From: Azoarcus sp. CIB
Lineage (GTDB): Bacteria; Pseudomonadota; Gammaproteobacteria; Burkholderiales; Rhodocyclaceae
Direction: 5' to 3'
Assembly: GCF_001190925.1 (NCBI RefSeq)
Contig: NZ_CP011072.1
Span: forward strand, 4,092,001 to 4,156,000
DNA length: 64,000 nucleotides
Shown here: one piece after another, positions 1,925-18,304 of the stretch
Layout of the letters: each line of letters opens with the position of its first letter
How positions within the stretch are numbered: the stretch's first letter is position 1
Translations under genes and position numbers: made by a program
The notes under the pieces: model-generated
The model's database searches: none
Told to the model about the DNA's origin: nothing
What the model saw: only the letters and a program-made list of their open reading frames with translations

Positions 1925-3084
1925 CGCTCCGCGTGGGCTTGGTCACGTCCGAGTTCCCGCCGGATCTGGGCGGTGTCGAGACCTACTCATGGCAGCTCGC
2001 GCGCGAACTGGCGAGCCGCCGCGACGTCGAGGTGACGGTCTATGCGCCGCCGACGGCGCGAGGGCTTGCACCGCCGCCGGGGGTGACGATCCGTCCTGTG
2101 CTGACGAGCTGTATGGAACTGGACTGGGCGCGACTGGCCAGCGAGCCGATCGATGTGTGGCACGCCTTGTCGGCGGCACACTGCTGGCTCGCGCAGAAAG
2201 ACCGCCCGACGGTGGTCTCGGTGCATGGCAACGATTTTCTCGTGCCCTACCCCGCAACGATGCGGCCTGCGCTTGCGATACCCGCGCTATGGCGGCTGCG
2301 CGGGTTTGCATGGAAAGAGTTCGAACCGTTGTGGCGGCGCGCGACCGCGCAGATGCTCAGACGGGCGCTGCCGCGCTGCGGCGCCGTGATCGCGAACAGC
2401 CGGTATACCGCCGACGTGCTGCAGGCCCTGGTGCCGGGCTGCGGTGATCGTATCGAGGTGGCGGGGGTGGGGGTCGATGGCGCGTTTTTCGACGTGGCGC
2501 GCACGCCTGGACACGGGCGACCGCGGCTGCTGACAGTGTGCCGGCTTTCCGAGGCGCGCAAGAACGTCGAACTCGTGCTGCGCGCGCTGGGAGCCCTCAA
2601 GGAGCGTTTCGACTTCGAATACGTCGTGGCGGGCGACGGGGCGCTGCGCGAGGGACTCGAACGGCTCGCGGCAGAGCTGGGCCTGGGGGCGCGGGTTCGC
2701 TTCGCCGGACGCGTCAGCGATGCGGAGCTGAGACAGCTCTATGCGACGGCCGACCTGTTCCTGCTGACCGCGTCGGTGAGTCCGGCCAGCCACGAGGGAT
2801 TCGGCATTGTCTATCTGGAAGCGGCCGCCAGTGGCGTGCCGAGCCTTGCGGCGCGGCTGGCGGGTGCAGTCGAGGCGGTGGCCGACGGCGAGTCGGGCTA
2901 TTTCGTGGAGACGCCGAATGTCGAGGCGATCGAAGCGGCCCTCGCTTCGTTCCTGTCCGGCCGGATCCGCTTCGATGTCGACGACTGCCGCAGTTTCGCG
3001 CGCCGCTTCACTTGGGCAAGGGTGGCGGACGTCGCGATGAAGTCTTATCGTCAAACATTGTCGATGCCTGCCTCCATGCCATGA
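1921..3084 (+). CDS. glycosyltransferase family 4
   Basis: The product is a 387-residue retaining GT-B glycosyltransferase, expected to use a nucleotide sugar at the cytoplasmic face of the membrane. The N-terminal glycine-rich loop (FPPDLGGVETYSW, residues 13-25) and the C-terminal EX7E-type motif in EGFGIVYLE are characteristic of GT4. The ATG at 1921 overlaps the previous stop as ATGA and matches the usual family N-terminus. A longer in-frame extension upstream exists but only shadows the preceding gene. Its own stop overlaps the next gene in the same way. Sugar specificity cannot be read from the sequence. Confidence 0.88.
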   Translation: MTLRVGLVTSEFPPDLGGVETYSWQLARELASRRDVEVTVYAPPTARGLAPPPGVTIRPVLTSCMELDWARLASEPIDVWHALSAAHCWLAQKDRPTVVSVHGNDFLVPYPATMRPALAIPALWRLRGFAWKEFEPLWRRATAQMLRRALPRCGAVIANSRYTADVLQALVPGCGDRIEVAGVGVDGAFFDVARTPGHGRPRLLTVCRLSEARKNVELVLRALGALKERFDFEYVVAGDGALREGLERLAAELGLGARVRFAGRVSDAELRQLYATADLFLLTASVSPASHEGFGIVYLEAAASGVPSLAARLAGAVEAVADGESGYFVETPNVEAIEAALASFLSGRIRFDVDDCRSFARRFTWARVADVAMKSYRQTLSMPASMP

Positions 3085-4034
3085 GCGAAGCGATCATCCC
3101 CGGCCTCGTGTCCGTCATCATGCCTTGCTTCAATGCCGCCCCCTTCGTTGCCGAAGCGATGGCATCGGCGCTGCGGCAGACCTACGGCAAGCTCGAGATC
3201 GTCGTTGTCGATGATGGTTCGAGTGATGGCAGCGCCGAGATCGCGGAAAGACTGATGGCGGAGCATCCCGAGCGCGTTCGGCTCTACCGCCAAGAGCGCA
3301 AGGGCCCGTACCCGGCGCGAAACCTCGCCCTGCGACATGCACGCGGCGAATTCGTCGCCTTCCTCGACGCAGACGACTACTGGGACGCGGATTGCATCGA
3401 GAAGCTGCATCACGCGCTGATTTCCGCTGCGGCCGAGATTGCCTATTGCGGCTGGCAGAACGTCGGCGAGGGGATCCAGTCCCCGCCACATGTGCCGCCG
3501 GAATACGAACGCGAGGATCCGGTCGCGCATTTCCTGCGCACCTGCCCGTGGCCGATCCACGGGGCACTGGTCCGGCACGCTCTGGTGGATTCACTGCAGG
3601 GCTTTTCGGAGCAGCGCTTTTCGTCGATGGATTACGACTTCTGGCTGCGGGCGCTCGCCGCGACGCGCAAGATCGTGCGCGTGCCGGAGGTGCTCGCGTA
3701 CTACCGCTGGCATGGCCAGGGGCAGGTGTCGGCGGTGAAATGGCGACAAGTGCTCGACGCCCTTGCCGCACAGCAGGGCTTCATCCGCGCGAACCCGCAG
3801 CTCGTCGCCCATTTGCCGCAGGAACGACTGCGCGCGCTCACCGAAGGGCGCGTGCTTGAACAGGCCTACCGGGCATTCTGGAAGCGCGACCTGGTATCGG
3901 CGCAACACCTCTTCCGCCATGCCGCCGCATCGCGCGCGTTCGGCAGCGGCGATCTGCGCCATGTCATCAGCGCGCTGCTGCCGCTGCCGCTCTACCGCTG
4001 GGTCACCCGGCTTGCCGATCGGGGAGGCGCATGA
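3081..4034 (+). CDS. glycosyltransferase family 2
   Basis: The product is a 317-residue inverting GT-A glycosyltransferase. The N-terminal strand VSVIMPCFNAAPFV, the VVVDDGSSDGS nucleotide-binding segment and FLDADDYW, which carries the metal-binding DxD, are all present in the first 110 residues. No transmembrane segment is obvious, so it is probably a peripheral cytoplasmic enzyme. It starts with an ATGA overlap on the GT4 gene and ends with an ATGA overlap on the deacetylase gene, so it sits inside one transcription unit for polymer assembly. Confidence 0.88.
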   Translation: MSEAIIPGLVSVIMPCFNAAPFVAEAMASALRQTYGKLEIVVVDDGSSDGSAEIAERLMAEHPERVRLYRQERKGPYPARNLALRHARGEFVAFLDADDYWDADCIEKLHHALISAAAEIAYCGWQNVGEGIQSPPHVPPEYEREDPVAHFLRTCPWPIHGALVRHALVDSLQGFSEQRFSSMDYDFWLRALAATRKIVRVPEVLAYYRWHGQGQVSAVKWRQVLDALAAQQGFIRANPQLVAHLPQERLRALTEGRVLEQAYRAFWKRDLVSAQHLFRHAAASRAFGSGDLRHVISALLPLPLYRWVTRLADRGGA

Positions 4035-4828
4035 ACACCGCCGCGCGTGTACCGGTGCTGATGTACCACCGCGTCGGTGACATCCGCGATGCACGGGAGG
4101 CCCGTTATGCAATCTCGGCCGCCAATTTCACTGCCCACATGAGGGCGGTCGCGCGCGCGGGCTTCCGGGCGATCGGCATCGACGCATTCGTCGCGTGGCT
4201 TCAAGGGGGGCCGTCGCTTCCAGAGGGGGCGCTGCTGATCACGTTCGACGACGGTTTCCGGGGGGTGCGCGAAGACGCCCTGCCGGTGCTCGAACAATTG
4301 GCCTGGCCCTTCACCGTGTTTCTCGTCAGCGACCAGACCGGCGGGGAGAACGCATGGATGCGTGGATCGAATCCGGACGCCGGAACCTACCCGCTGCTCG
4401 ACGCCGACGAAATCCATGACATGCAGCAACGCGGCTGCAGTTTCCAGTCGCACACGCGCAGCCATCGCCGCCTGCCTGAATTGGACGACGAGGCACTGAG
4501 GGACGAGTTGCGGGGATCGCGCGAAACGCTGTCGGAACTGCTACGCGAGGAAGTGCGCTATCTCGCCTACCCCTTCGGACAAGTCGATGAACGTGTCGAA
4601 GTCGCCACCCGCAACGCCGGGTACATAGCGGCCTTCGCCACGCAACCGGGGTTCAACCGGCCGGATGTCGATCGCTTCCGTATCCGTCGCCTGGATGTGT
4701 CCGGCACGGACTCGGCTGCGATGCTGCTGCGCAAGATCCGCCTCGGCAGCAACGATGGCAGTCTCGGCAACATTCTCGGTTATCGCTTGCGGCGAGTGGC
4801 GAGCCGACTTCCGGGGATGGCGCGATGA
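4031..4828 (+). CDS. polysaccharide deacetylase family protein (NodB-like)
   Basis: The product is a 265-residue carbohydrate esterase 4-type protein expected to remove N- or O-acetyl groups from a glycan. It begins VPVLMYHRV, typical of the family. The catalytic TFDDG motif (about residue 74) and the metal-binding SHTRSH (about residue 140) are both intact, as is the later YPFG segment. No signal peptide is visible, so it may act on a lipid-linked intermediate in the cytoplasm. It overlaps both neighbours by 4 bp. Confidence 0.88.
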   Translation: MNTAARVPVLMYHRVGDIRDAREARYAISAANFTAHMRAVARAGFRAIGIDAFVAWLQGGPSLPEGALLITFDDGFRGVREDALPVLEQLAWPFTVFLVSDQTGGENAWMRGSNPDAGTYPLLDADEIHDMQQRGCSFQSHTRSHRRLPELDDEALRDELRGSRETLSELLREEVRYLAYPFGQVDERVEVATRNAGYIAAFATQPGFNRPDVDRFRIRRLDVSGTDSAAMLLRKIRLGSNDGSLGNILGYRLRRVASRLPGMAR

Positions 4829-5796
4829 GTCCCGCACCGGCGGCCCCGGAGCCGGACACCGACGCCCCGCACATGGATGCTTCGGTGATCGTCTGCACCT
4901 ACAATCGCGCCGCATCGCTGCGCGACACGTTGCGGGCCTTGCGCGCGCTGCAGGTGTCCGCAGGCCGGCGCTGGGAAGTAGTGGTCGTCGACAACAATTC
5001 CAGCGACGGCACCCGCGCGGAAGTCGAAGCCGCTCAGCGCGATTGGCCGCAGTTGCGCTACGAGTTCGAACCGCAGCAGGGGCTATCCCACGCGCGCAAT
5101 CGCGGTATCTCGGCCGCTCACGGCGATGTGCTGCTGTTTACCGACGATGACGTGCTGCCCGAAGCGGACTGGCTGGAGGCAACGCTGGACGGCCTGGGGC
5201 GGCATCGTGCCGACGCGTGCGGCGGATATGTCGCGCCGATCTGGGGCGCCCCGCCGCCGCCCTGGCTGACCGAGCGTTTTCACGGTTTTCTGGCGATCCG
5301 CGCCGCGCGCAACGACGAGTACCCGATTACGCAGGCGGCCGATGCGCCGTTCGGGGCCAACATGGCCGTCCACCGGAGCGTGTTCAATCGCATCGGCGGA
5401 TTCGACACCGGGCGCGGGCGCAAGGGCGCCGTGCTCGCGGCTGGAGAAGATGGCGAACTTTTCGCGCGGATACTGCAAGCCGGCTGCAAGGTCGTGTTTC
5501 TCGGTGGTTCGCGCGTGCATCACAAGGTCGAAGCCTTCCGCCTGACGAAGCGCTATTTCCGCCGCTGGCGGCTGCATAACAGCCGCAATCAGGCGATCCA
5601 CCTGGGCATGCCCGGCACCCGCAGGCTGTTCAATATTCCGCTCTACCTGTTTCCGCAATTGCTGCGCGCCGTCGGGCGCGCCGTCGCCGGCCACTTTACC
5701 GCCAGCGGCGACGAGGCCTTCAATCGGGAGATCGTCGTCTGCCACTTTCTCGGCGTGTTTCAGGGCCTTTGGCAGGCACGGCGTCACCGGAATTGA
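4825..5796 (+). CDS. glycosyltransferase family 2
   Basis: The product is a 323-residue GT-A enzyme. After a short Pro/Asp-rich leader come ASVIVCTYNRA, the VVVDNNSSDGT nucleotide-binding stretch and LLFTDDDVLPEADW, whose three consecutive Asp residues provide the metal ligands. A GEDGELFARI stretch near residue 210 matches the catalytic-base region of the fold. It starts by ATGA overlap with the deacetylase gene. A 28 bp gap follows before the sulfotransferase gene. Confidence 0.88.
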   Translation: MSPAPAAPEPDTDAPHMDASVIVCTYNRAASLRDTLRALRALQVSAGRRWEVVVVDNNSSDGTRAEVEAAQRDWPQLRYEFEPQQGLSHARNRGISAAHGDVLLFTDDDVLPEADWLEATLDGLGRHRADACGGYVAPIWGAPPPPWLTERFHGFLAIRAARNDEYPITQAADAPFGANMAVHRSVFNRIGGFDTGRGRKGAVLAAGEDGELFARILQAGCKVVFLGGSRVHHKVEAFRLTKRYFRRWRLHNSRNQAIHLGMPGTRRLFNIPLYLFPQLLRAVGRAVAGHFTASGDEAFNREIVVCHFLGVFQGLWQARRHRN

Positions 5797-5824: not shown

Positions 5825-6781
5825 ATGCCCCATCTGAGCAGCCTGCCCAAGCTCCTCGACCGCGAGATCCGCGACAAGAACCTGCGCCTGCTCGGCTGGC
5901 GGGCGAAGGAGTTCGCGTGGTCGGTGCTGCGGCCGGCGATGCCCGATCCGGTGTTCGTCATCGGCTGCTCGCGCTCGGGCACGACAGTCACTTTCCAAAC
6001 CATCGCCGCGTCGGGCCACTTCCTGCATTTCGACTACGAGATTCCGCAGTTCTGGAACAGCCTGTACGGTCCGCTGAACAACGGCTGGAAGTCCGAGGCG
6101 GCCGATGCGGAGGACGCCCGTCCCGAGCACCGCGACCGCGCGCTGGCCCATTTCTATGCTCGGCTCGGCGCCGGTCCGGTGCTCGACAAGACCTGCATCA
6201 ACACGTTGCGCGTGCCCTATCTGCATGCACTGTTCCCGCAGGCGAAGTTCGTCTTCATCCAGCGCGACGGGCGCGACAACGTGAGCTCGATGATCGACGG
6301 CTGGCGCCTCGGGCGCGTCGATGGGGGATTCGGTCTGGAGCGCAACTTCGGGCCGTCGCCGGTGCCGGTAGCGATCAACGGCGGCGAGTTCCATGAATGG
6401 CATTTCTTCATCCCGCCCGGCTGGCGCGACTACAACACCGCAAGCCTGGAGGAGGTGTGCGCTTGGCAATGGGTGACGGCGAATCGGCTGGCGCTCGACG
6501 CTTCGCGCGCGATCCCGCCTGCACAATGGATACGGCTGCGCTACGAGGATCTGTTCGAACGCCCCGTGGAGATGTTTCGCGAGGCCTTCGCGCGCCTCGA
6601 CATCCCTTTCGACGAACCGATGCAGGCGCGCTGCGCGAGTCTGGCAAGCCGTCCGACGAGCATCGTGAAGGGCGCGCCCTGCCCGCAGAAGTGGAAGGAA
6701 CACAACCCGGAGGCGATCGAGCGCATCCTCCCGCTGATCTCGCCGCTGATGCGGGAAATGGGCTATGACCCGAACGACTGA
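5825..6781 (+). CDS. PAPS-type sulfotransferase
   Basis: The 318-residue product shows both nucleotide-binding signatures of the sulfotransferase fold. The 5'-phosphosulfate loop is GCSRSGTT (about residues 46-53), and the 3'-phosphate segment is FIQRDGRDNVSSM (about 143-155). The enzyme should transfer sulfate from PAPS to a hydroxyl or amine of a sugar or other acceptor. Its position among glycosyltransferases implies sulfation of the exopolysaccharide, which is inferred. No PAPS synthesis genes are in the window. The last 17 bp overlap the next gene. Confidence 0.85.
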   Translation: MPHLSSLPKLLDREIRDKNLRLLGWRAKEFAWSVLRPAMPDPVFVIGCSRSGTTVTFQTIAASGHFLHFDYEIPQFWNSLYGPLNNGWKSEAADAEDARPEHRDRALAHFYARLGAGPVLDKTCINTLRVPYLHALFPQAKFVFIQRDGRDNVSSMIDGWRLGRVDGGFGLERNFGPSPVPVAINGGEFHEWHFFIPPGWRDYNTASLEEVCAWQWVTANRLALDASRAIPPAQWIRLRYEDLFERPVEMFREAFARLDIPFDEPMQARCASLASRPTSIVKGAPCPQKWKEHNPEAIERILPLISPLMREMGYDPND

Positions 6782-7670
6782 GACGCCGACCGTCAGCGTG
6801 GTCATCCCGGCCTGGAACGCCGCATGGTGCGTCGGCAGGGCTATCGACAGCGTTTTCGCGCAGGCGTATCGCGACTTCGAGCTGATCGTCGTGAATGACG
6901 GCAGCACGGACGATACGGCCGCAGTGCTGGCGACGTACGGGGACCGCCTGCAGGTCGTCACGAAGCCGAACGGCGGCATGAGCAGCGCGCGCAACGCAGG
7001 CATACGCGCAGCACGGGGACACTACCTCGCGTTTCTCGATGCCGACGATCGCTGGCTACCGTGCAAGCTTGCTCGCCAGGTCGCGATGCTCGGCAGTCAC
7101 CCGGAGCTGGCGTTTTGCGCCGCCGTCGCGACGATCGAGGACCTGCAGGGCAAGACACTCGGCGAGTGGCGCGGCGCGCAGGGGCGGACCGCCGATGTCG
7201 CGGAGGTGTTCGAGAATCATGCTGCGGTGGCGGGCGGGGCATCGGCCGTGCTGGCGCGGCGTGAGCTCGTGGTAAGGCTCGGGGGCTTCGACGAGACGCT
7301 CGCCGGCGCCGAGGATACCGATCTCTGGATCCGTCTGGCCGCGCACGGCGGCTTCGCCTGCATCGACGAGCCGATGGTCGTGGTGCTGCGCCGTCCCGAC
7401 AGCGTGAGCCGCAATTTCGAGGCGATGCGCCGCGGCGCCCTGACAATGATCGGCAAGAATCGCGATCTGCTGCCGGCGGAACTGCGCGACGCGCTCTGGC
7501 GCAAAGTCTATGCGGGAACGCTTTGCGACTATGCGAAATGGGCCTATCGCGACGGGCGACGGGGGGCTGCGCTGCGCGACGTCCTGACCGCCCTGTGGGT
7601 GTCGCCGCTCGAACGCGGCCGGCTGGCGATCAGTCTCGCGCTGGCGATGCTGACGGGGCAGCGGATATGA
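6765..7670 (+). CDS. glycosyltransferase family 2
   Basis: The product is a 301-residue GT-A glycosyltransferase with SVVIPAWNAA at the N-terminus, VVNDGSTDDTA, and the metal-binding FLDADDRW. AGAEDTDLWIRL (about residue 180) carries the ED pair expected near the catalytic base. It overlaps the sulfotransferase gene by 17 bp and the fusion gene downstream by 4 bp (ATGA), so the three are likely translated together. Confidence 0.88.
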   Translation: MTRTTETPTVSVVIPAWNAAWCVGRAIDSVFAQAYRDFELIVVNDGSTDDTAAVLATYGDRLQVVTKPNGGMSSARNAGIRAARGHYLAFLDADDRWLPCKLARQVAMLGSHPELAFCAAVATIEDLQGKTLGEWRGAQGRTADVAEVFENHAAVAGGASAVLARRELVVRLGGFDETLAGAEDTDLWIRLAAHGGFACIDEPMVVVLRRPDSVSRNFEAMRRGALTMIGKNRDLLPAELRDALWRKVYAGTLCDYAKWAYRDGRRGAALRDVLTALWVSPLERGRLAISLALAMLTGQRI

Positions 7671-10600
7671 CGAACACCGGGGCGGCAACAACGGCGGGAA
7701 TGAGCCTGACGGTGCTGATCTGCACGCACAACCGCGTCGAGTTGCTGGAGCGGGTCATCGCCTCCCTGAATGCGGCGCACCGGCCGCCGGATACCGAGGT
7801 GCGATTGCTGGTCGTCGCAAATGCGTGCACCGACGGCACGCACGACCTCATTTCCAACTACCGGATCGGTGACGATCGCCTGCCGCTGGACTGGATCGCG
7901 GAACCCACTCCGGGCAAGTCCCACGCCCTGAACCGGGCGCTGCCGCAGGTGAGCGGTCGCGTCGTGGCCTTCGTCGATGACGATCATCGGGTCGACAGCG
8001 ATTATCTGGTCGAGATCGCGAACGCGGTACGCACGTGGCCCGAGGCGGGCCTGATCTGCGGGCGCATCCTGCCGGACTGGGACGGCACCGAACCCGAGTG
8101 GGTGCACGACGACGGCCCCTATCGCATCTATCCGCTCCCGGTGCCGCGCTATGACCAGGGCGACACGCCGATGCAGGTCGACCTCGACGGTGCGATTCCC
8201 GGCGGCGGCAATCTCGTCGCGCATACGGACGTGATCCGCGCAACCGGGCCGTTCCTGACGGAACTGGGTCCGACCGGGCACGACCTCGGCGGGGCCGAGG
8301 ATCTCGAGTGGATCCGGCGGGCGCTGCGTGGCGGGGCCACCCTGCGCTACGCGCCGGCGATCGTCCAGTACCACTACGTCGACGGCGAGCGGCTGACGCT
8401 GTCCTACCTGATGCGCAAGGGCTTCCACCGCTCCAAGTCGGTGATGCGCTTTCGCCGCACGGAAAGCGGCGTGCCGCTGTACATGTGGCGCAAGGTCGCC
8501 GGCTATGCAAGTGGCTGCGCACTTGCGCTGAACGCGCAGGCGCGGCGCTTCTATCTCGTGCGGATTGCTTCGGCCTTCGGCGAGGTGAGCGGCATGCGCG
8601 AGGCCGCGCGGCATCGGCGCCGGCGCGCCCGTCTCCCGTGGCTGCCGGTGCAGACCAGCCTTGCGCTGGCAGGGCTGCTCGGCATCACGGGCTTCGTGCT
8701 TGCCGCAAGCCTTGCCTGGCACCGGGCGATGGACGCGCTGCTGCCCGCAGCGCTGGTCGCAGTCGCGCTGGCGCTGTCGCTGGTCGCAAAATCGGTCGTC
8801 GACTTCTCGCAGACCGGACCGCAGCTGCGCGAGGAAATCGTCAAGCGCTACCGCGCCTATTTCCCGTTCGCGATGGCCCGCCTGGGCCTATGGACCTTCG
8901 CCGTCGGTCTGTTCTGCGCACTGCCGGGGGCGGTCGTCGCGACGGCCTCGGCCGATGCGCAGGGGATGCCGTACGCCCCGTGGCGGGCGGGACTGGGCGC
9001 GCTGCTGACGCTCGCCCTCGCAAGCGGCTACCTCACCTGCCGCACCCTCGTGCAGAACCCGGGATTGATCGTTGCTTCATGGCAGTACCGAACCGATCGC
9101 CTGCATCGTCTGTGGCGCCTGTTGTCCGCCGACGGCCTCCGCCGGGCTGCATCGCTCGGCGCCATCGGCGTCGCCGGACTTGCCGCGGCGCTGGTGCTTG
9201 CGCTCGCCGTTACCGGCCACGGGGAATCCGCCGCGGCCTTGACCAGCCTGGCGATCGGCTACTGGGGCGTGTTCGTGTTCGCCCTGTGGGAGCCGGAGGG
9301 CAACACGCCGGTTAAGCACCAGCGCACTCGTCCGAACCTGCTCCTGATCGGCTCGGACACGCTTCGTGCCGATCGCGTCGGCGCGTTGCGGAACGGTCAG
9401 TCTCTGACACCGCACATCGACGCACTGGCCAAGCGCGGCACGCGCTTCGACACCTGTTACGTGCCATGCGCGAGGACCGCACCGAGTCTGATCTCCCTGC
9501 TTACGGGAACCTGGCCCCACACGCATGGCATACGCGACAACTTCGTGGCCGACGATGAGACGCAGCTCGAAATCCAGGCGTTGCCGATGATCCTGCGTGC
9601 GCTCGGATACCGGACGGCGGCCGTCTCCGACTGGTGCGGCGCGGATCTCGGAAAGTTCTCGCTCGGCTTCGACGTCCTCGACCTCCCCGAGGACCAATGG
9701 AACCTGAAATACCTGATCAGACAAGGCCCGAAGGACATCCGCCTGTTCCTGTCGGTATTCCTGCACAACCGGATCGGCCGCCTGCTTGTCCCGGAAATCC
9801 ATTACCTCGGCGGCACGCCGCAGACGACCCAATTGGGCCAACGCACCCGCCGGCTGATCTCGCGCCTCGCGAGCACCGCCGAACCGTTCATGCTCAACGT
9901 CTTCTACTCGACGACGCACCCTCCTTTCGCCTCGGAATACCCGTTCTACCTGCGCCATGCCGATCCCGACTATGCCGGCGCTTCGAAATTCGCCATGGCA
10001 CGACTGACGGACCCGTTCGAGATCATTCGGCGGCAAGGCGAACCGCGCGAGGAATTCGACCTCGACCAGATCCTCGCGCTGTACGACGGATGCGTATCAC
10101 AGTTCGACGACGAAGTCGGCAAGATCATGAGCCACCTTGAAAGCAGCGGACTCGCCGACAACACGATCGTCGTCCTGTACAGCGATCACGGCATGGAGTT
10201 TTTCGAACACGACACCTGGGGCCAGGGCAACTCGGCGGTGGGCGATTTCAGCGCGCGGGTGCCGCTCGTGATTGCCGACCCGCGCAAGAAGCGGCACCCG
10301 CGGGTCGATCAGGTGGTGCGCTCGATCGACCTGCTGCCAACCCTGCTCGACCTCCTGGAAGCTCCGTCGGTAAAATGCGACGGCGTCTCGCTGGCCGGCG
10401 CGATGGACGACCCGCAACTGGATCTGGGCCTGAAGGCCTTCAACGAAACCGGTATCTGGATCGCCCACGTTCCAGGATTGCCGCCGGATCATCTGAGCTA
10501 CCCGGACCTGCTGGAACTGCTGGATATTCCCAATGAAACGAGCGGATCGCTGTCGATCAGGCAGGAATACAAGGATCGCGTGATCATCGCCAAGGATCGC

Positions 10601-10849
10601 ATGATGCGCCACGGACGATGGAAACTCGTCTATCAGCCTCTCGAACGCGGCATGCGGCTGGCGCTGTTCGACGTGGAGACCGACCCGGGCTGCACACACG
10701 ACATCTCTGCGGTAAACCCCGAGCAGGTGGAACTGCTGTGGCACGAATTGCGCAACTGGATCGAGCGCGACCCGGTCGCACGCCGCCATTTGCGGACGTA
10801 CCACAGCACGCCCGCGGCTACTCCGGCTTCTTCTCCTGCGTTGACTTGA
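7667..10849 (+). CDS. glycosyltransferase 2 / membrane / alkaline-phosphatase-superfamily fusion
   Basis: The product is a 1060-residue three-part protein. Residues about 12-290 form a GT2 domain (LTVLICTHNRV, FVDDDHR). Residues about 325-543 hold roughly six hydrophobic segments. Residues about 553-1040 are a sulfatase/phosphotransferase-type domain with GSDTLRADR (metal-binding Asp about 564) and YSDHGMEFFEHDTWG (Asp840/His841). The nucleophile position reads R-T-A-P-S-L, with Thr604 where sulfatases have Cys/Ser-x-Pro-Ser-Arg. The formylglycine Cys and following Arg are absent, so a Thr-nucleophile phosphotransferase like LtaS or EptA is more likely than a sulfatase. The start at 7667 is set by ATGA overlap with the previous gene. 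The end converges over 32 bp with the TPR gene. I infer that it adds and then modifies a sugar at the membrane. Confidence 0.82.
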   Translation: MTNTGAATTAGMSLTVLICTHNRVELLERVIASLNAAHRPPDTEVRLLVVANACTDGTHDLISNYRIGDDRLPLDWIAEPTPGKSHALNRALPQVSGRVVAFVDDDHRVDSDYLVEIANAVRTWPEAGLICGRILPDWDGTEPEWVHDDGPYRIYPLPVPRYDQGDTPMQVDLDGAIPGGGNLVAHTDVIRATGPFLTELGPTGHDLGGAEDLEWIRRALRGGATLRYAPAIVQYHYVDGERLTLSYLMRKGFHRSKSVMRFRRTESGVPLYMWRKVAGYASGCALALNAQARRFYLVRIASAFGEVSGMREAARHRRRRARLPWLPVQTSLALAGLLGITGFVLAASLAWHRAMDALLPAALVAVALALSLVAKSVVDFSQTGPQLREEIVKRYRAYFPFAMARLGLWTFAVGLFCALPGAVVATASADAQGMPYAPWRAGLGALLTLALASGYLTCRTLVQNPGLIVASWQYRTDRLHRLWRLLSADGLRRAASLGAIGVAGLAAALVLALAVTGHGESAAALTSLAIGYWGVFVFALWEPEGNTPVKHQRTRPNLLLIGSDTLRADRVGALRNGQSLTPHIDALAKRGTRFDTCYVPCARTAPSLISLLTGTWPHTHGIRDNFVADDETQLEIQALPMILRALGYRTAAVSDWCGADLGKFSLGFDVLDLPEDQWNLKYLIRQGPKDIRLFLSVFLHNRIGRLLVPEIHYLGGTPQTTQLGQRTRRLISRLASTAEPFMLNVFYSTTHPPFASEYPFYLRHADPDYAGASKFAMARLTDPFEIIRRQGEPREEFDLDQILALYDGCVSQFDDEVGKIMSHLESSGLADNTIVVLYSDHGMEFFEHDTWGQGNSAVGDFSARVPLVIADPRKKRHPRVDQVVRSIDLLPTLLDLLEAPSVKCDGVSLAGAMDDPQLDLGLKAFNETGIWIAHVPGLPPDHLSYPDLLELLDIPNETSGSLSIRQEYKDRVIIAKDRMMRHGRWKLVYQPLERGMRLALFDVETDPGCTHDISAVNPEQVELLWHELRNWIERDPVARRHLRTYHSTPAATPASSPALT

Positions 10850-11695: not shown

Positions 11696-12847
11696 CTACA
11701 GGGCGGTCCGGGTCCGGATCGCCACCGCGTCCCAGCCAAACTCCCCGCGCGCGCGCTGCATCGCCTGGCGCGCCAGCGCGTCGAGTTGCGCCCCATCCTC
11801 GAGCAGGCGACGGATCGCCTCCGCGACGGCAGGCTGATCGTCTCCGTCGGCCCGGACTCCGGTTACGCCGTCGAGTACGGCGGATCCGGTACCACCGGCC
11901 TTGCCCGCGATCGAGGCCTTGCCGCAGGCAGCCGCCTCGAGAAAAACGAGCCCGAAGCCCTCCGTATCGCCAGCGATATCGCGATTGACGAGCAAGAACA
12001 GGTCGCACGCGTTGTACCAGCGCGGCAGATCGTCCATTGCCACGTGCCCCAGCAGGTGGACACGCTCCTGCACGCCGGCATCACGTGCCACGCTCTCAAG
12101 ATACGCGCGATCCTCACCGATGCCCACGATCGCGTAATGCACGTCATGCCCTGCTGCGCGCAGGGCCGGCAGGCAGCGGATCACCGTATCGAAACCCTTG
12201 CGCCGGCTTAGCCGTCCCACCGACAGGAGCAGGCGCGCGCCGCGCGGCAGCCCGATGCTGTCGCGGAGATCCTGGAACGGGAGGCCGGGGCGGAACCTCT
12301 GAATATCGACCCCGGGGTTGATGATGACGATCCGCTCGCGGGAGACCCCCATCCCGGCGAGCACCTCGCAGGTGAAGTCGCTGTTGGCGACAACGTGATC
12401 GGCGTGTCGCAGGACGAAGCACATCACCCTGAACTTGTTCCCGCGCCCCCAGCCGGTCAGTTCCTCACCATGTGCGTACACGACCACCGGCCGCCCCGCA
12501 AGGCGCGCGACGACCAAGGCGACGAGCCCTTCCGGCAGCGCGCGACCGGCGTGGACCGCATCGAAGCGCTGACGCAAGGCCAGCGCGAGAGACTTTGCGA
12601 AGAGCTTGAGGTACATGCCGAGCGATTCGGGTCGCAGCCAGCGCACGCGGCGCAGGCCGACGCGGTGGACGGCATTGGGGTGATCGGCATCATGAGCGGC
12701 ATCGCCTGGCACTGCGGCAGTGACGATGGCAATCTCCTTCCCCCCCAGACGCCGGTAGACTTCGTCGAACCACACAGCGGTTCCGCCCTTGGTCGGCAGG
12801 AACAGTTCGGTAATGACGAGATAGCCCTGCTTCATCGGTCGTCGCAT
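11696..12847 (-). CDS. glycosyltransferase family 4
   Basis: The product is a GT-B enzyme of about 383 residues with the N-terminal loop FLPTKGGTAVWF, VYAHGEELTGWGRG in the acceptor domain, and LLLSVGRLSRRKGFD plus DTEGFGLVFLEAAACG (EX7E) in the donor-binding domain. The start is uncertain: ATG at 12847 or 12835 both fit, and neither has a strong ribosome binding site. It follows the deacetylase-like gene by about 22 bp and is separated from the TPR gene by 38 bp. Confidence 0.85.
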   Translation of the reverse strand: MRRPMKQGYLVITELFLPTKGGTAVWFDEVYRRLGGKEIAIVTAAVPGDAAHDADHPNAVHRVGLRRVRWLRPESLGMYLKLFAKSLALALRQRFDAVHAGRALPEGLVALVVARLAGRPVVVYAHGEELTGWGRGNKFRVMCFVLRHADHVVANSDFTCEVLAGMGVSRERIVIINPGVDIQRFRPGLPFQDLRDSIGLPRGARLLLSVGRLSRRKGFDTVIRCLPALRAAGHDVHYAIVGIGEDRAYLESVARDAGVQERVHLLGHVAMDDLPRWYNACDLFLLVNRDIAGDTEGFGLVFLEAAACGKASIAGKAGGTGSAVLDGVTGVRADGDDQPAVAEAIRRLLEDGAQLDALARQAMQRARGEFGWDAVAIRTRTAL

Positions 12848-12869
12848 CCATCCAGAATCCCGAAGGAGT

Positions 12870-14141
12870 CTAGCAACCGGCAGCACCCGGCGAGCGTCGG
12901 AATGTCACGTCGCCGAACAAATATCGAGCGGCTCGCAGGACCGCCCCGAGACCGCTGAATTTGAGCAGCCGAGCGGCCTCGGGGTCGCGCTCCAGTCGCG
13001 CGCACCAAACGGCGAGACGCTGCCGCAACGCCAGCACGCGCAGGGAGGAACCGGGATCGCGCAGCGCCCCGGCGAGTTCCGCCGTGCTCATGAACCGCAG
13101 GTCGGGATGGCGCGCCAGCGCCCCGCGCAGGGCACGCTCCAGCTCCGCGATGGCCGCATCGCGCACCTGGACCGGTCCGACAAAATTCGAGCGGTGAGTC
13201 TCCAGCAGGACGGGCCGCCCTTGGGCGACCTTTTCCGCAAGAGCTTCCCACACGCGCTCCGCGCGATGGCCGCGCAGCGGCTCGAAATACACGTCGCGCA
13301 CGACGTAGCAGACGTCGCCGCAACCGCGCTCACCGTTACGCATGCGCCGTGTCGCCCCAACAAGCTGCCCAGCCGCATCCCGCCCTTCATAGCGGCGGCC
13401 CGGTGTCACGACACAGCGCACTCCGCTCGCCGCCCAGGCCTGCTCGACGCGGTCGTCCCAGACGAAGGTGTTGGGCACCGCTACGTCCGGCGCATCGCCG
13501 AACACCTGCCGCAAGAGGTCGGCCTCCTCGCGCACCGCGCACTCGACTTCTGCAGTGGCAAGGGGCGAACTCGGCAGTTGTGCGCAATCGGCCCAGCGGC
13601 TCTGCAGGTAAGCAGGAAGATCCTCGGTGCGCACATCGGAGGTATGCAGCCAGCGCCGCAACGCATCGGCTTCGGCAGGACTTCCGCTGGAGGAGCCTCC
13701 TCGAAGCCGGGCGAGCAGGGACGCAGGCCAGAAATGTTCCAGCCCGTGCCGCTGCAGCGCGAACACACCGCTACTGCAACCGGCGCGTATCGCCATGACG
13801 ATCGGCGCAAAGTCGGGTTCAGCGAGCGTACGACGGACATACCGCGCCCCCGCCGACGCATCGATCGCGGCACCGTGCGGGACGCCGCTCACGACGCCGA
13901 GGGTCATCACCGCAGGATGCCCGCCGGCGTCGCGAACCACCTCCAGAGTATCCAAAAGGACGCCCAAGGCCGTGGCATCCTCCGGTGGCCCCGGCCCCCA
14001 ATCGTCGCTTTCGATGATCAGCACCGGACACGCCAGCACCGGCTCACGCCATGCCGCAGCAAGCGCCCGCCCGTGCAATGCGATCAGCAAGCCCACCGCG
14101 GCGCCGAACCAGCCAATGATCAGGGTGAACAGTGTTTCCAT
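12870..14141 (-). CDS. membrane-anchored protein, polysaccharide-deacetylase-like fold
   Basis: The product has 423 residues. An N-terminal hydrophobic segment (about 4-25) is followed by VLIIESDDWGPGPPED, in which the DD pair sits on the first strand of a TIM-barrel-like domain, as in NodB-type deacetylases. The C-terminal PVLLETHRSNF and FMSTAEL segments also resemble the last strands of that fold. The classical TFDDG and HxxxH motifs are not present as such, so substrate and activity are unknown. It lies between a GtrII-like gene and a GT4 gene on the same strand, so a role in surface glycan modification is inferred. Confidence 0.6.
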   Translation of the reverse strand: METLFTLIIGWFGAAVGLLIALHGRALAAAWREPVLACPVLIIESDDWGPGPPEDATALGVLLDTLEVVRDAGGHPAVMTLGVVSGVPHGAAIDASAGARYVRRTLAEPDFAPIVMAIRAGCSSGVFALQRHGLEHFWPASLLARLRGGSSSGSPAEADALRRWLHTSDVRTEDLPAYLQSRWADCAQLPSSPLATAEVECAVREEADLLRQVFGDAPDVAVPNTFVWDDRVEQAWAASGVRCVVTPGRRYEGRDAAGQLVGATRRMRNGERGCGDVCYVVRDVYFEPLRGHRAERVWEALAEKVAQGRPVLLETHRSNFVGPVQVRDAAIAELERALRGALARHPDLRFMSTAELAGALRDPGSSLRVLALRQRLAVWCARLERDPEAARLLKFSGLGAVLRAARYLFGDVTFRRSPGAAGC

Positions 14142-14157
14142 TCAGGGTGACATTTCT

Positions 14158-15678
14158 TCATTTTCCAGGCGGCGCCTTCGCAAGGACGACGATCCCGACA
14201 CCGTCCACCACTCCTATGCTTTCCGAATGAGGCCATGCCGGACGAGTTGCCGCGAACGCTAGGGCTTGCGCACTCCCGTCCGCCTCGTGGATCACATCGA
14301 CTTCGGTTCGCAGGAGTTTCGCCACGGCCCAGAAATGCTCGGCATCGATGAAATCCGTGGCCACACCGGTGGCACGCTTGAACGGATAGTAACCGGGCAT
14401 CGAATAGTTTCCGATCACCAGAATGCGCCGTCCGTCCCATCCGCTACTCGGCAGAGACCCGAGACGTGACAGGATCTGGGAGGTAGTCGAGAAGTGCGCG
14501 ACCATGTTCAGATAATTGATACTTGATATCCAGTTGGCCTGGGCAATGAAACCCAGGAGCAGCAGCACCGCAATACAGGTGGTGATATTGCTCAGAGCCG
14601 CTTTCCGGAAGCGATAAATCACGGCCAATGCGCCCGCGGCAAGAACCGCATACGCGGTGAGAGTGAGGTTGTGGTAATGCCCGGACGGATGGATGACTTG
14701 AAGCACGCGTGGCGCGAGAAAGGCCATCACGATCATCGCCGTTGCCAGCAGCTTATTGGCGATGCCCTTGGGTAACCAGACACCGAGCAGCACGCCGACA
14801 ATCAGCAAACCGAGCTGAAGATCCTTCAAGTTGGCGGGAAAATAGTTCTCGGGCCAGACAAGGGAGGCCCGCGTTCCGTCCAGAACCGCCCTCAGCGTCA
14901 GAAGCCGGTCCGTACCCAGTTGCAGATCAAACGCCTTATCCGCCCCCTGATAGGTGGACAAGGGCAGTCCCAGCGCCTTGACTGCAAGATAGTAGAGGGC
15001 TCCGCCGATGCCGATCGCCGCGAGCGTCGCAACCACAGGCAGGATCACAGATCGGCGACCGGAGGCATCCCCTGCCGCAGGGAAGGCGAGTTGCAGGACG
15101 ATCCAGACCCCGAGGATCGTCAGGGCGTTCGCGATCACGCTCTGATAGATCGAAAAGGCCGCAAAAAGTAGCAGGCTCGCGAGCAGTACCCGCAGAAGCG
15201 ATGGCCTGATCGCGATCAGCATGGCCAGGGCGCTCAGCGCATGTGCGAGCGGATACAGAGCCATCGAGCTGTTGTACTGATAGGTCTGCCCGACGTAGGG
15301 ATAAACGCAGACGATGGCCCCTGCCAGCGCAATCTCCAGTGTCCGCTGCAGACCCCAAATGTGGCACACGATCATGCCGTAGACGGCCATCAGCACGATC
15401 CCCTGCACCATCTGGACGAGCGGGATGATGCGGGCACCTTGCATGTAGTAGTTCAGCCACCCGAACCCGAAGCGGCCGACGTTGTGCTGCAGGTTGTCGC
15501 GCTGAACAAAGATCTGCAACACGTCGTCGTGGTGCAGGATGAGATTGGACATCTCGAATCCGAATGCGAGCACGCTGACCAGGATGCAGAACTGGAACGC
15601 CTTCCTGAATGGAGCGGGAAGGGATTCCCATCTCTCCACGACAATGCGGTCGATGGGCTCGGTCAGAAGACTTTTCAA
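14158..15678 (-). CDS. GtrII-like polytopic membrane glucosyltransferase
   Basis: The product is a 506-residue protein with about ten hydrophobic segments. LILHHDDVLQ after the first membrane segment matches the acidic loop expected in GtrII/O-antigen glucosyltransferases, which use a polyprenyl-phosphate sugar at the periplasmic face. No ATG is near the start. The reading frame opens with TTG at 15678, about 9 bp after a GAGGA ribosome binding site, and I take that as the start. No gtrA or gtrB flippase/primer genes accompany it here. The 69 bp between it and the MBOAT gene shows nothing recognisable. Confidence 0.72.
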   Translation of the reverse strand: MKSLLTEPIDRIVVERWESLPAPFRKAFQFCILVSVLAFGFEMSNLILHHDDVLQIFVQRDNLQHNVGRFGFGWLNYYMQGARIIPLVQMVQGIVLMAVYGMIVCHIWGLQRTLEIALAGAIVCVYPYVGQTYQYNSSMALYPLAHALSALAMLIAIRPSLLRVLLASLLLFAAFSIYQSVIANALTILGVWIVLQLAFPAAGDASGRRSVILPVVATLAAIGIGGALYYLAVKALGLPLSTYQGADKAFDLQLGTDRLLTLRAVLDGTRASLVWPENYFPANLKDLQLGLLIVGVLLGVWLPKGIANKLLATAMIVMAFLAPRVLQVIHPSGHYHNLTLTAYAVLAAGALAVIYRFRKAALSNITTCIAVLLLLGFIAQANWISSINYLNMVAHFSTTSQILSRLGSLPSSGWDGRRILVIGNYSMPGYYPFKRATGVATDFIDAEHFWAVAKLLRTEVDVIHEADGSAQALAFAATRPAWPHSESIGVVDGVGIVVLAKAPPGK

Positions 15679-15747: not shown

Positions 15748-17184
15748 TCAAAAATCAAAGTAGATGAACTTCTGGGTCGGACCGCCGAAGACGACGATCG
15801 CGAGTACCAGAGACGCATAGGCAACGCCACGCAGCGGGAACGGCACCCGCCACCACCAATCCACCCCACGACGTTCGAAAACCGCAACGATGCGCGGCTC
15901 GATCAGGACGAGCACGACCGTCACGAGCACGCCGACAATTTCATACAGGCGCACGGACAGGAGGGCGGACGGCTCGGCAAGCCCCAGCATCGCAGCGCAC
16001 ACGGTCCACGCGTCGGAGAAATTCGGCGCGCGGAAGAATACCCAGGTGAAATGGATCGCCACGAAGGTCAGCGGCCAGCCCAGCCACGACAGGGCGCGAT
16101 CGACCGATGCCCCTTCCGCGATACCCGCCACACGCAGCGCCGCATTGAGCAAACGGTGCCCGATCAGCAGGGTGCCGTGCAGGAATCCCCAGAACACGAA
16201 GGTCCAGTTCGCACCGTGCCACAAGCCGCCCAGCAGCATCGTGATCATCAGGTTGCGGTAGCTGGCAAAGCGCCCGCCGCGATTGCCGCCGATCGAAATG
16301 TAGAGGTAGTCGCGCAACCAGCGCGACAGCGACATGTGCCAGCGGTGCCAGAACTCGGTCGCGCTGCGTGCCATATAGGGAAAGCGGAAATTCAGCGGCA
16401 AGGTAACGCCGAACATGCAGGCGAGGCCGAGAGCCATTTCGCTGTAGCCGGAAAAGTCGAGGTAGATCTCCATGCCGAACCCCAGCGTGGCCAGCCAGGC
16501 CAGCAGGAAATCGAGTTTCGCCGGTTGTGCGAACAAGGCATCGACCAGCGGGGCCAGATTGTCGGCCAGAAGCGCCTTCTTGATCAGACCACCGGCAAAG
16601 ATGAAAGCGCCGATCTTGAGATTGCGCCAGCTCACCGGCTGCAGGTCTTCGAGCTGTGCCACGAGCTCATGGACACGCACGATGGGGCCGGCGATCAGCT
16701 GCGGGAAGAAGCTGACGAACAGGCACCAATGGCGGAAGCTGATGCGGCGCGTGCAGTCGCCCCGATAGACGTCGATCATCGCGCTCAGCATGTGGAAGGT
16801 GTAGAAGCTGATGCCGAGCGGCAGCACCCAGTCGATCCACGCCGGGCGCGCCACGGCCACCTCCGCCCCCGCAACACGCGCAAGCCACAATGCGGACTCG
16901 ATCAACAGCGCAAGGTATTTGAAGCAACCGAGCACCGTCAGATTGGCTGCGATCGCGGTGATCATCAGCGCACGCGAGCGCGTCGCCAGCATGCCCCGAT
17001 ACACGAACCAGTTTGCCGTCACCGACGCGCCGAGCAGGATCAGGTAGGCCGGCTTCCACGACGCGTAGAAGATCAGGCTCGCCATGAGCAGCACCGTGGC
17101 ACGCTGCGTCGGCGAGCGGGCGAGCAGGTACGTCGCCAAAACCGCTGCGAAGAACACGGCGAAGGACACACTGCTGAAGATCAT
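15748..17184 (-). CDS. MBOAT family O-acyltransferase (AlgI-like)
   Basis: The product is a 478-residue polytopic membrane protein with about eleven hydrophobic helices, starting MIFSSVSFAVFFAAVL as AlgI/DltB relatives do. GGLWHGANWTFVFWGFLHG contains the invariant MBOAT histidine. Members move acetyl groups across the membrane to decorate extracellular polysaccharides with the help of periplasmic partners. Its ATG overlaps the stop of the SGNH-like gene (17181-17184), a typical pairing, so acetylation of the exopolysaccharide is likely. Confidence 0.88.
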   Translation of the reverse strand: MIFSSVSFAVFFAAVLATYLLARSPTQRATVLLMASLIFYASWKPAYLILLGASVTANWFVYRGMLATRSRALMITAIAANLTVLGCFKYLALLIESALWLARVAGAEVAVARPAWIDWVLPLGISFYTFHMLSAMIDVYRGDCTRRISFRHWCLFVSFFPQLIAGPIVRVHELVAQLEDLQPVSWRNLKIGAFIFAGGLIKKALLADNLAPLVDALFAQPAKLDFLLAWLATLGFGMEIYLDFSGYSEMALGLACMFGVTLPLNFRFPYMARSATEFWHRWHMSLSRWLRDYLYISIGGNRGGRFASYRNLMITMLLGGLWHGANWTFVFWGFLHGTLLIGHRLLNAALRVAGIAEGASVDRALSWLGWPLTFVAIHFTWVFFRAPNFSDAWTVCAAMLGLAEPSALLSVRLYEIVGVLVTVVLVLIEPRIVAVFERRGVDWWWRVPFPLRGVAYASLVLAIVVFGGPTQKFIYFDF

Positions 17185-18200
17185 CGCGCACCCACCCTCA
17201 CGGGGCGAGCCCCGTCATCGGCCAGCGCCCGTCCGAGCATGGCGCTGAAGCGCTGGGCGCCTCGGTCGTTAAGGTGGCCGGCGTTTACGAATTCGGCGGG
17301 ATCACGGCGCTCGCCGGCGGCCAGTGCCAGCATGGGCACCTCGCGCGCGGCCAACTCGGAACGGATTTTCAGGTAGGGTGCTGCCGCCGGGTGCGCCTCG
17401 TCGAGGTAGAGCACCTGACGCGTCAGCAGCGGGGGAAACACCACGCTCGCCCTCACCCCGCGCTGACGGAGCAGATCCAGCATTGCCAGCAGGTCGGCCT
17501 CGGCGATGCGGTCGGGCGGCGCGGTGGAGCCCGCCTCCTGACGCATGACCTGTTCGGCATCCTGCGCCGCGGCGCCGAAACCCGGCCGATAGCCCTGTCG
17601 CCGCGCGGCCCCGCCGCCGACCGGCTCAACCGGCCCGAGCACGGCGCGAACCAGTTGCTCCAGTTTCGCAGGTTCGCGCAGTTGCTTGAGATTCCCCGCA
17701 TAGCCCCAGCCACGCAGGATGCTTCGCGCGAGATTCGCGTAGTCACCGTGCGCAAGCATGCGCTCGCGGTCGCCGAAGAACACGAGATAGCCCAGAGAGT
17801 CATCGGCCTGCACGAGCCCCTCGTCGAGTCCGATAACGACCTGCTCGATCGCGCCCGGCCTTAACAGGCGCGCGGAGTCCAGCCGGCGGACGATGCCGTA
17901 GAGAACGCTCGCATTGGCGCCGGGCAGGCCGAGATTGAAGCCCGACGGGCCGGACCGGCCACCGGCGTGCTCGACGACCGTCACGGGATCGAAGCCGTTG
18001 TCGACGCGGCTGTTTCCCAGCAGCAGCAGGCGTGGCGGATTGCCCTCGACATGCAGGAGTTTGTCCATCGCCCGCCCCGCCGCGAACACCGCGCGAAACC
18101 GATGCAGGACCGTGTCCGAATGCAGCAGGGCCTCGGCCCCCAGCAACAGCACAATCGCCACGGCAATCCCCGCGCCCGGACGCAGCCATGCCCACTTCAT
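17181..18200 (-). CDS. SGNH/AlgX-like periplasmic acetyltransferase partner of MBOAT protein
   Basis: The 339-residue product is anchored by an N-terminal hydrophobic helix (about 8-25). LLLLGNSRVDNGFDP is a block I of SGNH type, with Asn in place of Asp and Ser as the likely nucleophile. NAGHLNDRGAQRF near the C-terminus supplies the His of block V. The protein probably receives acetyl groups from the adjacent MBOAT protein and places them on the glycan in the periplasm. The start at 18200 is chosen because GAGGG precedes it and it yields the anchor. Upstream in-frame codons extend into unlikely sequence. Confidence 0.75.
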   Translation of the reverse strand: MKWAWLRPGAGIAVAIVLLLGAEALLHSDTVLHRFRAVFAAGRAMDKLLHVEGNPPRLLLLGNSRVDNGFDPVTVVEHAGGRSGPSGFNLGLPGANASVLYGIVRRLDSARLLRPGAIEQVVIGLDEGLVQADDSLGYLVFFGDRERMLAHGDYANLARSILRGWGYAGNLKQLREPAKLEQLVRAVLGPVEPVGGGAARRQGYRPGFGAAAQDAEQVMRQEAGSTAPPDRIAEADLLAMLDLLRQRGVRASVVFPPLLTRQVLYLDEAHPAAAPYLKIRSELAAREVPMLALAAGERRDPAEFVNAGHLNDRGAQRFSAMLGRALADDGARPVRVGAR

Positions 18201-18304
18201 CGCGCTGCCCTCGGACGTTTGCATGTGCAAGCGTGACCTCTGCGGCATTCCCGCCACACTGCATCGGCTACCATTGCCGCAGCCCCGATCAACCGGATGA
18301 CGGC

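Follow-up and report, generated by a model that had tools for sequence, protein, structure and literature searches.

A fused GT2 and Thr-type S1-fold membrane protein of Azoarcus sp. CIB, predicted to act in exopolysaccharide assembly

Choline sulfatase holds its metal ion through Asp14, Asp296 and His297, and its active site further contains Lys102, His104 and a His201-Lys309 pair (PMC5870055). In the wider family PF00884 the nucleophile position is occupied by Thr in 30 of the 59 seed members, and proteins of this Thr type are not to be deemed functional sulfatases without evidence (PMC5066984). Genes labelled as sulfatases also occur in exopolysaccharide (EPS) clusters of a kind which governs flocculation; in EPS cluster 1 of Thauera aminoaromatica MZ1T one stretch ends in a gene annotated "sulfatase [wbbL]", and the deacetylase gene tmz1t_3249 of the same cluster restores flocculation in a mutant (PMC4784049). 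The subject of this report is the gene at 7667-10849 (+ strand) of a 64,000-nucleotide stretch of the Azoarcus sp. CIB genome (contig NZ_CP011072.1, positions 4,092,001 to 4,156,000; hereafter the window), which encodes a 1060-residue fusion of a family 2 glycosyltransferase (GT2), a membrane domain of six predicted helices and a Thr-type S1 sulfatase-fold domain. Based on sequence, fold and context we infer, at a probability of roughly 40%, that it is a two-headed inner-membrane enzyme of XrtA/PEP-CTERM-type exopolysaccharide assembly, which would combine sugar addition with Thr-dependent phosphoester chemistry at the cytoplasmic face.

The reading frame is intact, without an internal stop, in a genome which consists of a single 5.26 Mb contig, and the nearest named relative is Aromatoleum tolulyticum (97%). 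The start codon (ATG, 7667) and the stop codon of the preceding GT2 gene share the letters ATGA, and the fusion gene closes a compact run of + strand genes. The GT2 domain (7703-8626, residues about 13-320) was recognized by Glycos_transf_2 (PF00535) at residues 15-149 with 58.4 bits (cut-off 23.3), and D104-D106, E211 and D212 are conserved in at least 90% of the aligned rows. It is followed by the membrane domain (8645-9286, residues 327-540) and by the S1 sulfatase-fold domain with its C-terminal subdomain (9326-10801, residues about 554-1045), which was matched by Sulfatase (PF00884) at residues 556-897 with 151.7 bits (cut-off 25). The intact frame and the Pfam matches bear out the first-pass annotation, which had read one 1060-residue chain joining a GT2, a membrane and a sulfatase-type domain. 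When the protein was scanned against NCBIfam, none of the models reached its own cut-off; the best scores were 120 bits for arylsulfatase PRK13759 (cut-off 481), 116 for choline-sulfatase (433) and 89.7 for HpsE (300).

An AlphaFold2 model of the full-length protein, based on a 63-row alignment, had a mean pLDDT of 86.9 and a pTM of 0.82. Between the two enzyme domains it contains six long helices (residues 327-349, 351-378, 398-432, 438-463, 488-515 and 519-540), in agreement with the "about six" membrane segments anticipated from the sequence. The S1 part was superimposed on 6hr5 with a Z score of 34.3 (rmsd 2.8, 355 residues aligned), on choline sulfatase 7ptj with 31.1 and on phosphonate monoester hydrolase (PMH) 4uph with 30.4, and among the structure matches listed all 50 were sulfatases or PMHs, which assigns the domain to the S1/PMH fold, an alkaline-phosphatase core with an added C-terminal subdomain. 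The membrane part alone (pLDDT 87.8) gave no clear match to solved structures, the best Z score being 7.2 over 78 residues; EptA and LtaS were not among the matches of this search, which returned weak ones only.

The active site of the S1-fold domain was compared in an alignment of 100 rows, from which six repeat copies were omitted and in which the identical L052 and L131 were both kept; the S1 parts in this set go down to 44% identity to that of the window. T604 (9476-9478), in the motif R603-T604-A-P-S-L608, aligns with the Cys that becomes formylglycine in solved sulfatases (or with its Ser or Ala mutant). The metal ligand positions are occupied by D564 (9356-9358) and the pair D840-H841 (10184-10189), the single-metal-site set of choline sulfatase, and the retained active-site His, H751 (9917-9919), would by its position correspond to His201 of that enzyme. 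The residues which bind sulfate are replaced: D655 (9629-9631) stands at the Lys of GKW(H), and C657 at the His of GKWH. L608 is aligned with the Arg of CxPSR. The general-acid Lys aligns, depending on the alignment, with either Q853 or N855 of Q853-G854-N855 (10223-10231), neither of which is Lys in any row. All of these codons lie on the + strand. D564, R603, T604, D655, W656, K663, H751, D798, D814, D840, H841, W851, Q853 and N855 do not vary in any of the 100 rows, while position 608 is L in 94, M in 3 and I in 3, and position 657 is C in 86, A in 12 and S in 2. Thr604 at the nucleophile position, the loss of the Cys/Ser and Arg of formylglycine sulfatases, and the persistence of the metal sites had all been claimed from this one sequence; the residues named were confirmed at their stated positions, and each point was found to hold in every row.

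With C/S-x-P-x-R replaced by T604-A-P-S-L608, and with the sulfate-binding Lys/His and the general-acid Lys lacking, a formylglycine sulfatase was ruled out. Since the catalytic and the replacement residues are alike invariant, the domain is not such a sulfatase and is probably not catalytically dead; the identity of T604, D564, D840, H841, H751, D655, Q853 and N855 throughout the alignment argues for a working active site. A Thr at this place is already known in the wider family; this protein stands out in that a complete S1 fold, its pocket refitted, is tied to a glycosyltransferase (GT). Phosphorus chemistry would be likelier for it than sulfate chemistry. The genome itself contains four matches to the FGE-sulfatase family (PF03781; C1:368407-369147, 369292-369909, 2140188-2140994 and 3054284-3054961), so that the case against a formylglycine sulfatase does not depend on a missing maturase. 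A Thr-type domain is not known as a substrate for formylglycine formation.

In the proposed mechanism the GT head would add one sugar to an undecaprenyl-linked repeat unit before it is flipped. The S1-fold head, kept on the cytoplasmic side with the GT by way of the six helices, would pass through a phospho-Thr intermediate, formed at Thr604 with the help of a metal ion, and could thereby move or remove a phosphoryl substituent on the same lipid-linked glycan at the same face of the membrane; alternatively, its substrate may be a phospholipid or a CDP-alcohol donor. The sugar added would vary by lineage, the GT being swapped, and the phosphoester step would stay constant.

Near full-length matches to the protein were found in 10 of 61 related genomes, namely in 9 of the 17 of the genus (the genome itself being included in these counts) and in one from another family of the order. 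A scan of species-representative genomes with the full-length protein matched 133 stretches, 128 of which encode a relative; the best 80 of the 128 were kept, a set which favours fusions because the full-length protein was the query. GT2, membrane and S1 parts lie in one frame at 71 of these 80 loci (with L024 and L061 cut by a contig end and L072 carrying an unreadable residue), and the architecture for which a domain search had been suggested was thereby recovered. The membrane-plus-S1 part stands without a fused GT at five loci (L073, L075, L076, L095 and L096), and four others end at a contig edge ahead of the GT position (L084, L093, L094 and L097). By their records the 80 loci, many of which are metagenome-assembled and some near-copies, belong to Beta- or Gammaproteobacteria or to unspecified Proteobacteria, except for one Rhizobium metagenome bin.

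The membrane-plus-S1 module (E <= 1e-60) was detected in 21 of 369 genomes across the class and, across the phylum, in the genome under study alone among 398. Frames of 1048-1194 residues are present in eight of the 21 class genomes (again including this one), other frames in 12, and the remaining one (G516) is truncated where its contig stops. Fifteen of the 21 regions were inspected, three of those with long frames, which are fused, and the 12 with other frames, which are not. A GT gene of the same types lies in the stretch in eight of the 12 unfused regions (L118, L119, L120, L121, L123, L125, L128 and L129), weaker GT matches were seen in L124 and L126, and none was seen in the stretches of L122 and L127. 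Fused and separate forms are therefore about equally common across the class. The GT and the module tend to stay neighbours whether fused or not, which suggests a functional link. Homologues with separately encoded halves, together with an in-frame assembly error here, had been named in the first-pass annotation as grounds for refutation; such halves do occur, in 12 of the 15 class regions inspected, but as a natural arrangement beside many intact fusions and not through an assembly error in this gene.

For GT2 enzymes of this kind, nucleotide sugars are the donors and the cytoplasm is the place of action. As a chain which starts at a cytoplasmic GT and crosses the membrane six times returns to the side it left, helix parity predicts that the S1 domain is cytoplasmic as well. 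Hydropathy plots, for which a peak threshold of 1.25 was used throughout, gave six peaks in 73 of 76 fused proteins, five in two and four in one (two further fused proteins were unscored). Among 16 unfused forms five peaks were obtained in nine, six in five and four in two, and two other PF00884-related membrane proteins of the genome have five each. On one reading, the extra first helix may be needed for the fusion of a cytoplasmic GT, provided that the remaining five are oriented as before.

This placement bears directly on the rival which survives best, although we hold it to be unlikely: that a cytoplasmic GT is fused to an EptA/LtaS/GacH-like periplasmic transferase of the phosphoethanolamine or phosphoglycerol type, its Thr taking the group from a phospholipid and passing it to the glycan after flipping. 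EptA/LtaS-type transferases work in the periplasm, and a Thr nucleophile with a D, D-H metal set is common to the EptA/LtaS/GacH group; Thr604 with D564, D840 and H841 conforms to the D/E, D, H plan of EptA/LtaS-type enzymes. The unfused module is about as common as the fused one, 13 of the 16 unfused forms start at the five-helix core, as do EptA and LtaS, and the LtaS model matches one of 14 rows at 1e-10. With its six helices, however, the fused form is predicted to have the domain on the side of the GT, whereas a periplasmic enzyme would have five. The fold is nearest to S1 sulfatases, including the C-terminal subdomain, and the fusion protein obtains about 22 bits with the models for LtaS and LapC, whose cut-offs are 970 and 825. 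The phosphoethanolamine- or phosphoglycerol-type transferase first proposed is thus not supported by the fold, by these scores or by the even helix count. The enzyme might still be labelled a transferase, but its fold and the side of the membrane predicted for it speak rather for a cytoplasmic phosphoester enzyme of another kind.

The GT half was found to differ in kind among the fusions. On the 71 fused modules three GT types were distinguished, type A (that of the window) in 54, type C in 12 and type B in five, with L084, which has a short linker match at its contig edge, not counted as a type B fusion. Type C is 37-41% identical to type A and type B is without a match to it at 1e-5; one B and one C example were tested and both matched PF00535. 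The Asp-rich DDD-type motif of GT2 enzymes is kept in 72 of 73 type A and C fusions. On a tree of 93 S1 domains at least 12 changes of GT type and at least six between fused and unfused forms are needed, this being a "quick" tree with long-branch warnings, from which L001, L007-L015 (several duplicate records), L024 and L061 (cut short) and L129 were omitted and in which unreadable letters were deleted from the rows holding them.

Nine cross-type pairs and one same-type pair were picked from this tree and compared part by part. In the cross-type pairs the S1 parts are 79-93% identical, while the GT parts are at most 48% identical or match only in a linker of 55-57 residues. L086 (type B) and L085 (type A), for example, share 89% of the S1 and 92% of the membrane part, and their GTs are unmatched apart from a 57-residue linker. 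The corresponding values for S1, membrane and GT parts are 90%, 93% and 48% for L057 (C) and L032 (A), and 93%, 66% and 42% for L064 (C) and L046 (A); in the same-type control pair L025/L028 they are 98%, 95% and 95% (N-terminal/GT part). The membrane part is not always retained with the S1 part, as in L078 and L056 (S1 87%, membrane 48%). As judged from these comparisons the GT half can be exchanged, the same membrane-plus-enzyme module carrying GT2s of three types. A tentative extension of the proposed two-headed enzyme would be a constant cytoplasmic Thr-type S1-fold phosphotransferase onto which GT2s of different lineages are grafted, so that in floc-forming EPS the lipid-linked repeat unit would receive a lineage-specific sugar and, coupled to it, a phosphoryl decoration which is conserved; that decoration is possibly a phosphopolyol, as a PF04464 fusion in L087 (see below) hints.

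The same exchange could be expected if the S1-fold domain were dead and only anchored or regulated swappable GTs, as a scaffold of EPS assembly; the retention of the S1 half while the GT half is swapped, and the loss of the sulfate-binding residues, both fit such a domain. We regard it as decidedly unlikely, since all 100 rows agree in the metal ligands, the Thr, the His and some twelve further residues of the domain, at S1 identities down to 44%.

The fusion gene is separated by about 15 kb from XrtA and is on the opposite strand to an XrtA/PEP-CTERM exopolysaccharide cluster at 20103-41395 (- strand). This cluster encodes the O-glycosylation ligase of the exosortase A system, exosortase A with EpsI, the XrtA amidotransferase, the Stp1-3 glycosyltransferases and FemAB, together with a deacetylase with DUF3473, UDP-GlcNAc 2-epimerase, the XrtA ATPase, the outer-membrane protein TIGR03016, a tyrosine autokinase and a chain-length determinant. 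XrtA scored 347.1 bits (cut-off 208), EpsI 125.9 (42.8) and the amidotransferase 1104.2 (816.9), and Stp1, Stp2, Stp3, FemAB, the ATPase and TyrK all exceed their cut-offs.

The run which ends in the fusion gene consists, all on the + strand, of a GT2 gene at 2538-4034 (PF00535, 123.3 bits), a polysaccharide deacetylase gene at 4031-4828 (PF01522, 83.1 bits), a second GT2 gene at 4825-5796 (PF00535, 104.4 bits), a sulfotransferase-family gene at 5825-6781 (PF13469, 77.4 bits) and the GT2 gene at 6765-7670 (PF00535, 108.6 bits) that overlaps the fusion start. The order GT2, deacetylase, GT2, sulfotransferase family, GT2, fusion is that of tmz1t_3248 to tmz1t_3253 in EPS cluster 1 of T. aminoaromatica MZ1T (PMC4784049), the deacetylase gene being the positional counterpart of tmz1t_3249. 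The legend of Fig. 5 in that paper names the MZ1T genes GT2, deacetylase, GT2, hypothetical, GT2 and sulfatase. In T. aminoaromatica S2 (L049) the same six genes occur in the same order, with the sulfotransferase-family gene in the place given as "hypothetical"; the five genes before the fusion are 56%, 58%, 33%, 76% and 68% identical to those of the window and the fusion is 64% identical. Orthology with tmz1t_3253 is accordingly a proposal based on gene order and on this sister strain. The EPS of MZ1T contains rhamnose, galacturonic acid, GlcNAc and FucNAc and may also bear non-sugar groups in ester linkage (PMC4784049).

The sulfotransferase-family gene of the run gives some ground for a sulfate enzyme, that is, a Thr-type sulfatase or a sulfuryl-transfer enzyme which edits sulfate set by its neighbour. 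Related genes are present in the stretch at 55 of 79 loci, a good many of them with no more than 34-38% identity and in the opposite orientation, and the fold is that of a sulfatase. We attach little likelihood to it, as the CxPSR Arg, the sulfate-binding Lys/His and the general-acid Lys are all replaced, by residues which are either invariant (D655, Q853, N855) or confined to L/M/I at 608 and C/A/S at 657. Finally, an assembly or frameshift artefact joining two genes, to which the separate halves in L073, L095 and L096 and in L118-L129 of the class sample might have pointed, is ruled out by the in-frame fusion at 71 of 80 loci and by the stop-free frame in a single-contig genome.

A lead to the nature of the phosphoryl group comes from Candidatus Nitrotoga sp. 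1052 (L087:8913-13280, + strand), in which the fusion extends into a third domain matched by the CDP-glycerol glycerophosphotransferase family PF04464 with 48.7 bits (cut-off 22.1) and weakly by NCBIfam teichoic-acid models; in L089 a separate gene downstream of the fusion (7793-9148, + strand) encodes a 55% homologue of this domain. These hints of a CDP-glycerol link are kept only as a lead.

Several observations weigh against the proposed two-headed enzyme and its cytoplasmic placement. Homologues of the L087 domain were detected at two of 80 loci and at none of L118-L132 (blastp at 1e-5, frames of at least 60 or at least 100 residues, with many stretches stopping at contig ends), and PF04464 has no match in the genome under study. 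Lys and Arg average 10.5 in the loops on the S1 side and 0.7 in the other loops, in the same sense in 63 of 63 rows; this speaks for the cytoplasmic placement, but the count is biased by loop length (66 versus 11 residues), so that the topology rests mainly on helix parity. In eight unfused forms the N-terminal flank has 8 Lys/Arg per 96 residues and the part behind the first helix of the core 27 per 240, densities too close for charge to fix the orientation of these forms. The absence of a helix ahead of the common five-helix core, seen in 13 of the 16 unfused forms, has exceptions in L075, L076 and L121, and five helices before such a domain are the plan of EptA and LtaS too. The adjoining sulfotransferase-family gene would also fit sulfate chemistry. 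The phosphoester chemistry is a prediction for every member of the group, and phosphate is not reported for Thauera EPS in the excerpts of PMC4784049.

Between the fusion gene and the XrtA cluster further genes were identified. A GT4 gene at 11696-12886 (- strand) is convergent with the fusion gene and has a homologue in the stretch at 62 of 79 loci. It is followed at 12870-14141 (- strand) by a gene for a 423-residue protein without a Pfam or NCBIfam match, which has homologues at 52 of 79 loci and appears deacetylase-like by eye only (IESDDWGP, LETHRSNF). A GtrII-type glucosyltransferase is encoded at 14158-15678 (- strand; PF14264, 74.8 bits), adjoined by an MBOAT-type gene at 15748-17184 with a DltB score of 151.1 bits, below the cut-off of 375. 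A second asparagine-synthase-family gene (PF00733) at 18032-20170 (+ strand) lies on the opposite strand to its cluster neighbours.

Both domains of the fusion belong to known families. In open-licence literature, searched by titles and the starts of abstracts, no GT fused to a sulfatase-like domain was found described in EPS synthesis. For the non-sugar groups of these polymers the passages cited here name no enzyme, and the protein would be a concrete, cluster-linked candidate for one such modification; the "sulfatase" label in these EPS clusters would be wrong, and the natural GT swaps and split or fused pairs provide material on why two activities are tied together. Its closest named counterparts are the T. 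aminoaromatica MZ1T product Tmz1t_3253, "sulfatase (wbbL)", which takes the same place in the gene order (PMC4784049), and Rubrivivax gelatinosus RGS1_10427, also "sulfatase (wbbL)", given as the counterpart of Tmz1t_3253 (PMC3684757). The excerpts of both papers carry no analysis of the fusion, nucleophile or topology of that protein, and the likeness to the MZ1T and R. gelatinosus genes is judged by gene order and by this published correspondence.

Among GT2 EPS glycosyltransferases (HpsE, EpsD, MftF) the HpsE model is matched over residues 13-250, at the sub-cut-off score given above, and the window's protein differs from these enzymes in being fused to a second enzyme domain. With EptA, LtaS and LapC it shares the Thr nucleophile and helices before an alkaline-phosphatase-superfamily domain; it differs from them in the six helices of its fused form, its S1-type C-terminal subdomain, its GT head and its predicted cytoplasmic location. 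The choline sulfatase/PMH group (7ptj, 7pth, 4uph and 2vqr) has the same fold, at Z scores of 30-31, and choline sulfatase also the D, D-H metal set and the active-site His. In contrast to that group, the protein of Azoarcus sp. CIB has Thr in place of formylglycine and other residues at Lys102/His104 and Lys309, and it is membrane-bound and fused to a GT, which suggests an S1-fold active site refitted to work without formylglycine.

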